DNA from: Thiomicrorhabdus indica
Lineage (GTDB): Bacteria; Pseudomonadota; Gammaproteobacteria; Thiomicrospirales; Thiomicrospiraceae
Assembly: GCF_004293625.1 (NCBI RefSeq)
Contig: NZ_CP033040.1
Coordinates: 2,185,001 to 2,249,000, forward strand
Reading direction: 5' to 3'
Length of the DNA: 64,000 nt
Shown here in pieces: positions 1 to 29,549 of this stretch. The translations under genes were made by a program, and so were the position numbers. The notes beneath the pieces are model-generated. The model saw only the letters and a list, made by a program, of their open reading frames with translations, did no database searches and was not told the origin of the DNA. Numbering within the stretch: position 1 is the stretch's first letter; each line of letters starts with the position of its first letter.

Positions 1-977
<977 letters not shown>

Positions 978-26704: not shown

Positions 26705-29296
26705 TTACTCTTTAACCGAGAAAGTGTTCTCCAATACCTGCATATCAAACGCTCCGACCAACTGTTGTAAAGCTGAGTCTGACAGCAAGGACTGTTTGGC
26801 ATTTTCAAGCTTTTGCTGGGACTGTCTTTCAAGAAATTGACTAGGAGTCTCTGATAAATTTTCTTGCGCAATCGGCCAAGCTTGCCATTCAACAGTTGAT
26901 TTACAATATTGACTAAGAGCTTGTGCGATTTCTTGTTTTATCGAGTCAACATGAGGATAGTCATGTTCAGGCATTAGCGCCAAATTAAAACTTTCACCGG
27001 CCGGTAATAAAATGGAATTCAAGGCCACTTCTCGCTTCATCCCTGAAAATTTTAACACCTCAATCCATTGCATCCATTTAGTTAAATTCTGGGAAGGCGT
27101 AAGACTTTGCTCAAAGTCGGTCAAGCTATTAAAACCAATGTTTTCTGGCACTCTTGTATCTGTGGCTGAGTTAATCCTTTCTATGCCCGTAGAATTCACA
27201 TCTGTCGCCACTTCTCGAGTCTCTTGGACTCCTTCAACACTATTTTTTACCGGCCGGCCAGTGTTTTCAGCAGCTTCAGTTTTATCGGAGTTTTCAACCC
27301 AAGGAACATCATAAAACTGCGATAAGTCTTCAGACTGATTCATTTCTGCTTGAAGAACCTCTTGGGAAGCATTTTGCTGCATCGCCTGCGTTGAAAGAGC
27401 TGATTCTTCGATGTCATTTTGGGTGTGATTAGACTGCCCCCTACCATCATCTGTGCTATCAACAGCTTTTGCTTTCGGTAGATCTTCCAACGAATTTAAA
27501 TGGTGATCCTCGGCCTTATTTGTTGATAACTGATTTTCGCCTTCCCAAGGTAAATCAACTTTTTCTTCAAGGAAGGAGCCATTTTGCGGCTCAGCTATTT
27601 CATCATTTTGCGATTGAAAACGATCTGGAACTTGATTTAAGGAATGGCTTGATTCCGAAGATGAGTCAGTCGTTTTAAACTCTCTCAAACCCACACTTAC
27701 CTTGGAATCACTTTTAGCATGAGAAGAGTCGTCAGACTTAGCTGATGCAGGAGCTTGCAATGCCTGTAAACGCGCTTGCAACATTTCAGAATGGTTCACC
27801 GGTTGAGGCTGAACGACCTCTTCAACAGGTGTTTTTAAAATTTCAGAGTTTTCACTTAGCTCAACTTTTTTTTTTGCAGCACTTGAAACCAAAGATCGAG
27901 CAGAACTAAGGTGACTCATAGCGTCATTAATTCCCATGTCTTGAATCATTGATGGTTCATCAGGACGGATTCCTGATGCCAATCCAGAATCTAAAGAGTC
28001 TTTACTGGGGTTCGCCCCTGTATTTGAGCTTTGAACATTTGGACCTTGCGCCCCTTGATACGCATGAACCGAAGGTTTTTCTGACGTGATAACAGGCCCT
28101 TGCTGGCTTATGGTAGAACTCAAACTTTGGTTAGTTTGGACAGTCTCCATTTGGGTAGAAGGCGTTGATTTTCCAAATCCATGAGAGTCTGGAGTATGCA
28201 CTTCTTGTACCGCCTTGGGAGAAAAGGCCAACATTCTCATCAGCCCCATTTCAAAGCCAATTCGGATATCCGGAGATAGCAACATATCTTGCTTGGTCAG
28301 CAAAGCAATTTGATAAAGCATTTGCACTCTTTCCGCCGATAAACTCTCAGCAAAGGCGGTCAAAGTTTCATCTGGCAGCCCAGAATTTAAATTCACGTCT
28401 TGAAAGACCTGATGATAACTAATCGCATGTAAAGCCTCAATCAATTGAGTCAAAAGGGCTTGGTAATCTACCCCCATTGCGCCAATATCCATGATGACCG
28501 CTTTTAAATCCTCAGATGCATAGTCGGCAAGAGCCTCTAAAACTCGGATAGTAAACTGTTGATCCACCAAGCCCAGCATTGTCTGCACCGACTCAAATTG
28601 AATCGCTCCACCACTGTAAGCAATGGCTTGATCCAGTAAACTTAATGCATCTCGCGCAGAGCCATCCGCACTTTTCGCAATCAACCCCAAAGCGGATTCT
28701 TCAAATTTCAAAGACTCCTGTGATAACACATAAGCTAGGTGACTCTGAATCTGCTCAATCGTTAAACGCATTAAATTAAACTGCAAGCAACGCGACAAAA
28801 CCGTAATGGGTAGCTTGTGCGGATCGGTTGTCGCCAAGATAAATTTCACATGCTCTGGAGGCTCTTCCAATGTTTTGAGTAACGCATTGAAACTGCTTTT
28901 TGAAAGCATGTGCACTTCATCAATCAGATATACCTTGAAACGGCCTTGTGTGGCTGCAAATTGCACGTTATCCAAAATTTCACGTGTATCATCTACTTTG
29001 GTTTTTGAAGCCGCGTCCACCTCAATCAAATCAATGAATTTACCTTCATCAATGGCTCGACAGTTATCACAGACACCACAAGGCGTTGAACTGATTCCTT
29101 GCTCGCAATTCAGAGCCTTGGCAAAAATGCGTGCAATCGTGGTTTTCCCCACTCCGCGCGTGCCCGTAAATAGATAAGCATGATGTAAACGGTTTTGATC
29201 CAAAGCATTTGCCAACGCTTGCATCACATGTTGCTGCCCGACTAATTCAGCAAATTTCTTTGGACGCCATTTACGCGCCAAAACCGTATAACTCAT
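26705..29296 (-). CDS. dnaX: DNA polymerase III subunits tau and gamma
   Basis: The 863-residue tau is longer than E. coli (643) because of a Ser/Gln-rich middle (about residues 375-700). The clamp-loader AAA+ part has FTGTRGVGKTTIARIFAKAL (Walker A), the four-Cys zinc module NCEQGISSTPCGVCDNC, LIDEVHMLS (Walker B) and sensor 1 ATTDPHKLP. The C-terminal region should contact DnaB and alpha. An A10 run (27866-27875) encodes Lys475-477. After a -1 shift the next codons are AGT TGA; after a +1 shift, AAG TTG AGC TAA. Slippage there would give a gamma form of about 478 residues. Start ATG at 29296. First protein gene of dnaX-ybaB-recR. Two CCGGCCGG palindromes (26997, 27250). Confidence 0.96.
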   Translation of the reverse strand: MSYTVLARKWRPKKFAELVGQQHVMQALANALDQNRLHHAYLFTGTRGVGKTTIARIFAKALNCEQGISSTPCGVCDNCRAIDEGKFIDLIEVDAASKTKVDDTREILDNVQFAATQGRFKVYLIDEVHMLSKSSFNALLKTLEEPPEHVKFILATTDPHKLPITVLSRCLQFNLMRLTIEQIQSHLAYVLSQESLKFEESALGLIAKSADGSARDALSLLDQAIAYSGGAIQFESVQTMLGLVDQQFTIRVLEALADYASEDLKAVIMDIGAMGVDYQALLTQLIEALHAISYHQVFQDVNLNSGLPDETLTAFAESLSAERVQMLYQIALLTKQDMLLSPDIRIGFEMGLMRMLAFSPKAVQEVHTPDSHGFGKSTPSTQMETVQTNQSLSSTISQQGPVITSEKPSVHAYQGAQGPNVQSSNTGANPSKDSLDSGLASGIRPDEPSMIQDMGINDAMSHLSSARSLVSSAAKKKVELSENSEILKTPVEEVVQPQPVNHSEMLQARLQALQAPASAKSDDSSHAKSDSKVSVGLREFKTTDSSSESSHSLNQVPDRFQSQNDEIAEPQNGSFLEEKVDLPWEGENQLSTNKAEDHHLNSLEDLPKAKAVDSTDDGRGQSNHTQNDIEESALSTQAMQQNASQEVLQAEMNQSEDLSQFYDVPWVENSDKTEAAENTGRPVKNSVEGVQETREVATDVNSTGIERINSATDTRVPENIGFNSLTDFEQSLTPSQNLTKWMQWIEVLKFSGMKREVALNSILLPAGESFNLALMPEHDYPHVDSIKQEIAQALSQYCKSTVEWQAWPIAQENLSETPSQFLERQSQQKLENAKQSLLSDSALQQLVGAFDMQVLENTFSVKE
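27866..27875 (-). promoter_or_regulatory. A10 slippery run in dnaX (predicted gamma-producing frameshift site)
   Basis: Ten consecutive A on the coding strand, framed GCA AAA AAA AAA GTT GAG. Both alternative frames stop at once (TGA two codons on, TAA three codons on). E. coli dnaX uses ribosomal -1 frameshifting at A6G; Thermus dnaX uses transcriptional slippage on A9. I see no Shine-Dalgarno-like stimulator just upstream, which favours transcriptional slippage here. Confidence 0.7.
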
Positions 29297-29439: not shown

Positions 29440-29549
29440 GGTGGCAACTCTATCCGCCTGACCTTGGCGCACGCATCAGCTAGTACCGTTGCTTCCTTCC
29501 GGACCTGGCGGGGTTTCCAACCTAGCGTCGCAAGGGGACGAATAGAATC
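29440..29549 (-). ncRNA. ffs: Signal recognition particle 4.5S RNA
   Basis: On the minus strand, the apical SRP loop is unmistakable: CCAGGTCCGGAAGGAAGCA (about 29507-29489), the Ffh-binding GGAA tetraloop with its symmetric and asymmetric bulges. The distal strand (GCGTGCGCCAAGGTCAGG) and the closing helix (CTATTCG pairing with CGGATAG) follow. The size of about 110 nt fits the short gammaproteobacterial type. End positions are set by the closing helix and may be off by several bases. It lies directly upstream of dnaX on the same strand. Confidence 0.95.

Follow-up and report, generated by a model that had tools for sequence, protein, structure and literature searches.

Transcriptional slippage on a run of nine A's (A9) is established for the dnaX gene of Thermus thermophilus (PMC5009743, PMC1088944), and dnaX of Escherichia coli uses −1 programmed ribosomal frameshifting (PMC5009743). 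Another kind of dnaX, described from 12 genera (17 genes, of which 12 have poly-A), occupies two open reading frames (ORFs); runs of A7–A10 occur, and tau needs recoding (PMC3711429). For Blochmannia, slippage was proposed as a possible correction of a frameshifted dnaX (PMC3017870). Here we describe dnaX in a 64,000-nucleotide stretch of the Thiomicrorhabdus indica genome (hereafter the window), which carries a run of ten A's (A10) followed closely by stops in both shifted frames. We put at about two in three the probability that this run is a programmed transcriptional-slippage site, at which RNA polymerase would make a ~52-kDa gamma beside the 95-kDa tau, as in Thermus dnaX. A search of the open-access literature for Thiomicrorhabdus together with dnaX found no paper. 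In further open-access searches on slippage and frameshifting in dnaX, none of the matches listed, judged by titles and abstract starts, described recurrent A9 runs in gammaproteobacterial dnaX.

The codons at the run are GCA AAA AAA AAA GTT GAG CTA AGT (AKKKVELS). Frame 0 is open for all 863 amino acids, and the gene is thus not of the two-ORF type. Directly behind the run, AGT TGA follows in the −1 frame and TTG AGC TAA in the +1 frame, exactly as a preliminary description of this DNA had claimed; counted from the codon that holds the last A, TGA comes after two codons and TAA after three. In the proposed mechanism, RNA polymerase would add or drop A's on A10 and so produce dnaX mRNAs of differing A count. 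Those with 10 A's (or 10 plus or minus 3) would yield tau, and the remaining ones would meet TGA or TAA within two to three codons to yield gamma of 477–480 amino acids. The products predicted from A9, A11, A8 and A12 mRNAs have 479, 478, 477 and 480 amino acids, respectively, and 52.0–52.4 kDa, in agreement with the ~52 kDa suggested beforehand; tau has 95.0 kDa. Such a gamma would keep the clamp-loader ATPase core but not the domain through which tau binds the polymerase alpha subunit. The run lies between that core, which ends at residue 357, and domain V, which starts at residue 735. Its placement "just after" the core in the preliminary description was only partly right: a long linker separates the end of domain III from codon 474, but the run does sit behind a conserved motif and, in the alignment, within a few residues of the E. 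coli frameshift site. Recurrence, both-frame stops above chance and the predicted loss of domain V (residues 735–855) together make a putative gamma-making slippage site well supported, with RNA polymerase as the favoured candidate for the slipping machine. The features are collected in Table 1.

Table 1 Features of the window dnaX gene (positions within the window).
Feature	Position	Strand	Basis or remark
dnaX, DNA polymerase III tau/gamma, 863 amino acids	26705..29296	minus	single open frame through the A run; NCBIfam NF005942, TIGR02397; Pfam PF13177, PF22608, PF12169, PF12170
A10 slippery run (GCA AAA AAA AAA), codons 474–477	27866..27875	minus	sequence; T10 on the plus strand
TGA stop, −1 frame	27861..27863	minus	would be reached by A11 or A8 mRNA, or by a −1 ribosomal shift
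TAA stop, +1 frame	27856..27858	minus	would be reached by A9 or A12 mRNA
Conserved linker motif SARSLV, residues 465–470, directly upstream of the A run	27887..27904	minus	motif pattern
Clamp-loader core, domains I–III, residues 1–357, common to tau and gamma	28226..29296	minus	Pfam
Tau domain V, alpha-binding, residues 735–855, missing from predicted gamma	26732..27094	minus	Pfam

Like dnaX of T. thermophilus, the window gene encodes tau in one open frame, carries a sense-strand A9/A10 run with close stops in both other frames, and is predicted to give a shorter gamma. It differs in having A10 rather than A9 and a gammaproteobacterial host, and here we infer slippage from sequence. The Thermus run lies seven-eighths through the gene (PMC1088944), against 55% in the window dnaX (codon 474 of 863), and Thermus has two lysine tRNAs (PMC5009743) as against one kind in the window genome. 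With E. coli dnaX it shares the nearby aligned position behind an LAARxxL-like motif, a stop right after the shift in the −1 frame and a single kind of tRNA-Lys (PMC5009743). Unlike that gene, it lacks the A_AAA_AAG heptamer, the upstream Shine–Dalgarno (SD) stretch and the downstream stem, and has a near stop in the +1 frame as well. The two-ORF genes likewise combine A7–A10 runs in dnaX with proposed slippage, but their frame 0 gives the short product, whereas frame 0 of the window gene gives tau (PMC3711429). Blochmannia dnaX is also a gammaproteobacterial case in which transcriptional slippage on a homopolymer was proposed; its tract lies in the tau-only region and needs slippage to restore tau, whereas the window gene has an uninterrupted frame 0, and slippage would shorten its product (PMC3017870). 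The window gene probably adds a new member to the Thermus-type slippage sites known in dnaX.

Recurrence in the family was assessed in 62 genomes, from which 58 dnaX stretches were obtained and 57 of these analysed; G004, G006, G034 and G079 (no match, or a weak one far below dnaX scores) and the partial G001 were left out, and G017, with frame 0 ending at codon 385, was nonetheless counted. A run of at least nine A's occurred in the dnaX linker of 16 of these 57 genes. The carriers are 10 of the 29 genes from the window's genus, all 4 from g2, 1 of the 8 from g5, 1 of the 11 from g6 and none of the 5 from g28 and g3 together. This distribution requires at least six changes on a tree of the DnaX core. 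Within the genus, the run comes after a conserved, SARSLVGKK-like linker motif, and the SARSLV pattern itself was present in 28 of the 30 genes scanned, the misses being the partial G001 and the interrupted G017. Seven relatives read GGA AAA AAA AA(C/G) and have the +1-frame TAA at the same distance from the run start as the window gene; in three of these seven the distance of the −1-frame TGA is equal too. Six further members of the genus have Lys-Lys at the site without a long run, and the base preceding the pair is never A there, a result that follows in part from the definition.

Both shifted frames stop within six codons in all 10 genus carriers, compared with a mean of 15.5% over the linker positions of the 16 family carriers; being related, the 10 do not count as independent trials. 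When codons were randomised under the same protein, the combination of a run with both stops within six codons had P values of 0.002–0.03 in the seven A9 relatives, 0.048 in G003 and 0.035 in G021, and from 0.21 down to 0 in the g2, g5 and g6 carriers; G059, G060 and G067 do not show the combination. Lysine codon choice points the same way in the family. There, AAA AAA encodes 34 of 43 Lys-Lys pairs in the linker, where the usage of the individual genes would predict 16.6, and 1 of 6 pairs in the core, with the reservation that the genes are related and the pairs overlap.

The same feature extends beyond the family. The class sample comprised 136 genomes outside it (18 + 60 + 58), drawn from a 140-genome class search and the first search for relatives, after removal of G052, G054, G057, G111, G116 and G142 (weak match or none); 124 of the 136 stretches exceeded 1,400 nucleotides, those of the carriers G102, G164 and G188 being shorter. 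Eighteen of the 136, from 18 families, have at least nine A's in the dnaX linker, and no T, G or C run of that length was found in the dnaX linkers of these genomes. Two of the carrier genes have a G+C content of 68% and 71%, and in the latter the share of AAA among lysine codons outside the site is 0.00. Across 118 loci, the linker and tail (72.6 kb) contain 18 A runs; the flanks (180.7 kb) contain 2 A or T runs and the core (123.9 kb) contains 1. The run density of linker and tail is thus about 20 times that of the flanking DNA. In class linkers, all 14 sites matching an [EQ]KK pattern are written with uninterrupted A's; this is a selected set, since the pattern required the next residue to be one with codons that can start with A.

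Stops in the shifted frames were tested in the 16 class carriers whose frame 0 is open past the run. Fourteen of them have a +1-frame stop within eight codons (5.9 expected, p = 1.2e-5). Both frames stop within eight codons in 11 (3.3 expected, p = 1.6e-5) and within ten codons in 13, again a strong excess over the 4.4 expected. Counting family and class together, frame 0 is open past the run in 32 of 34 carriers. In the other two, G102 (A11) and G188 (A9), it ends right behind the run, and the −1 frame is open for about 200 codons (loci L260 and L219). The −1 frame of G188 carries tau domain V (Pfam PF12170, E = 5.9e-16), so that tau would be the slipped product; a Pfam search of the G102 −1 frame gave no match. 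Both genes resemble the two-ORF kind (PMC3711429).

The run also stands out within its own genome (G000, 2.83 Mb, a single contig). It is the sole homopolymer of at least nine in the window and one of only two A/T runs of at least ten in the genome, the other (C1:1000805) lying outside any ORF of at least 50 amino acids. Of 28 runs of at least nine, 9 A-sense and 2 T-sense runs fall inside ORFs of at least 80 amino acids. When the codons for the proteins of 47 window ORFs are randomised and the result is scaled up to the genome, about 114 A-sense runs of at least nine and 32 of at least ten are expected; for the window alone, one run against 2.6 expected is uninformative. Avoidance of long A/T runs in this genome is real, in line with the earlier statement that ten A's are normally avoided in genes. 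Selection against A/T runs from nine upward has been described for a large share of genomes, and by the logic of that work such avoidance suggests a slippage-prone polymerase (PMC1088944). Among the eight other A-sense sites of at least nine, one has both shifted stops within six codons and is located at the end of its ORF. In G021, the other genus carrier of A10 in dnaX, the dnaX run is the sole A10 of the 2.5-Mb genome. As a separate observation, two A9 runs lie 141 bases apart in G000 (C1:989405 and C1:989546; loci L143 and L144) within one long ORF, which is incomplete in the stretch examined.

Several observations, in this paragraph and the next, weigh against a programmed polymerase-slippage site. 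For the window protein with its codon usage, the probability of a run of at least nine is 0.40, and that of such a run with both stops is 0.10; the case therefore rests on comparison. There too the picture is divided. As to the conservation in relatives raised in the preliminary description, eight of nine members of another clade of the genus have a run, yet the nearest clade on the DnaX tree (G011, G013, G020, G024, G026; support 89) has none, and G000 itself sits on a long branch with unsure placement. As many as 41 of the 57 family genes do without such a run, and gamma production by this route is thus not universal. In the class, Lys-Lys pairs are written AAA AAA in 60 of 91 linker cases (47.1 expected) and in 23 of 35 core cases, 66% in both, which means that lysine codon choice there is not special to the linker. 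The −1-frame stop excess is weak (12 of 16 within eight codons, 8.0 expected, p = 0.024; p = 0.15 within six), and the both-frame excess depends on the cut-off, with 2 against 1.1 at four codons (p = 0.3) and 6 against 2.2 at six (p = 0.012). The chance figure, the bare nearest clade and the core codon choice would all fit a run without programmed function, either a KKK patch kept for the protein or a chance run, with any slippage as noise. We consider that improbable in view of the ~20-fold enrichment over flanks, the runs in genes of 68–71% G+C, the uninterrupted [EQ]KK sites of the selected pattern and the paired stops above chance. The tract might instead be hypermutable and serve phase variation by replication slippage, given that an A10 is expected to be mutable and that such runs are likely hypermutable in this way (PMC1088944). 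Random switching would leave about two thirds of carriers out of frame, whereas 32 of 34 have frame 0 open past the run; phase variation has next to no chance of being the explanation and was rejected.

The leading alternative is −1 ribosomal frameshifting at A_AAA_AAA inside the run, which would yield gamma much as in E. coli but without stimulators. The run holds two overlapping in-frame A_AAA_AAA heptamers with TGA two codons on, and its place behind the LAARxxL-like motif near the E. coli site also suits the ribosome. Moreover, tRNA-Lys UUU was the only lysine kind found among the 49 tRNA places of the genome; this single kind, as in E. coli, means that the ribosomal route is not disfavoured. 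The search for stimulators used E. coli dnaX as positive control, where it recovered an SD-like stretch of −7.4 kcal 9 bases upstream and a stem of about −19 kcal (−19.1, z −2.7); as that hairpin ranks only at 15% among its own gene's sites, the control is a rough yardstick. In the window no upstream SD stimulator was found, the best stretch reaching −2.7 kcal, and no downstream stem-loop standing out, the near hairpin having −3.9 kcal with 90% of same-gene sites at least as strong, which upholds the original remark that neither stimulator is evident. The genome has two copies of a 16S-like 3' end, TGGATCACCTCCTT, with the usual anti-SD; the pattern used for such ends matched in four of seven genomes, G000 included. 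No A_AAA_AAG was found in frame in the window dnaX, where only A_AAA_AAA occurs in frame. Among genus carriers the run closes with an AAC, AAG or AAA codon, and two of the nine carriers at the motif have A_AAA_AAG; what the carriers have in common is a length of nine or ten rather than a heptamer. The search covered the window and 32 further carriers (all but G059), most of which resemble the window in having no stimulator that stands out within their own gene. Strong near hairpins occur in G032, G058 and G179 (top 1% of same-gene sites) and G115 (top 3%), and SD-like stretches in G067 at 6 bases and G102 at 3 bases from the run. G146 (A9) combines an SD-like stretch at 9 bases with a −15.4-kcal hairpin (23% of its own sites being as strong), so that some runs may serve the ribosome; these seven genes may use it. 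In addition, the enrichment of +1-frame stops is of no use to −1 ribosomal shifting and thus counts for slippage by RNA polymerase, and mixed shift direction has been taken as a mark of transcriptional realignment (PMC3711429). Frameshifting by the ribosome alone is, in our view, unlikely at the window site. Contributions to gamma from both machines appear hardly probable: A10 is in principle slippery for both, and dnaX genes of different species use one or the other (PMC3711429), but in a purified E. coli system A9 or A10 gave little truncated product and A11 a robust amount (PMC4363877), a result that also speaks for the polymerase. The preliminary preference for polymerase slippage accordingly stands as favoured by the missing stimulators, the unkept A_AAA_AAG and the enriched +1 stops. 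We infer all three elements of the programmed-slippage reading: that slippage occurs, that RNA polymerase is its agent, and that gamma is made and useful.

Apart from the A runs, a sub-clade of the genus (G001, G012, G017, G023, G028 and G029; loci L089, L050, L052, L049, L056 and L053, respectively) shows 152–667 nine-G k-mer matches per ~2-Mb genome, compared with 0–18 in the other 56 family members. Its dnaX loci hold G/C runs of 7–11, several of them within the open dnaX frame (G012, G023, G028, G029), and four control relatives have none. In L052 (G017), dnaX frame 0 breaks off at codon 385 because of a G11 tract, and the C-terminal part matches in a different open frame downstream. The G-tract excess is either a real expansion or an assembly artefact. 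In the window itself, a gene for the small bacterial signal recognition particle RNA lies directly upstream of dnaX (29448–29544, minus strand; Rfam RF00169), and a 16S rRNA gene is cut by the window edge (1–977, minus strand).

The frequent, scattered A9–A11 sites in the dnaX linkers of the class are the more interesting part of these results than the window site. On balance we lean towards polymerase slippage on A9–A11 as a recurrent alternative to E. coli-type frameshifting across the Gammaproteobacteria, with many gains and losses in the dnaX linker; lineages would swap the slipping machine and keep both products, and in a few the arrangement would be reversed, with tau as the slipped product. 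Truncating slippage is hard to recognise by comparison (PMC1088944), and paired stops together with recurrence across families offer a way round this. The place of gamma in the E. coli holoenzyme was long disputed, and in Caulobacter gamma is essential and made by proteolysis (PMC5009743). If the reading is true, recurrent selection for a gamma-yielding slippery run would speak, on evolutionary grounds, for the importance of the short form, and the class would hold a natural series of dnaX genes in which transcriptional slippage takes the place of the ribosomal kind.

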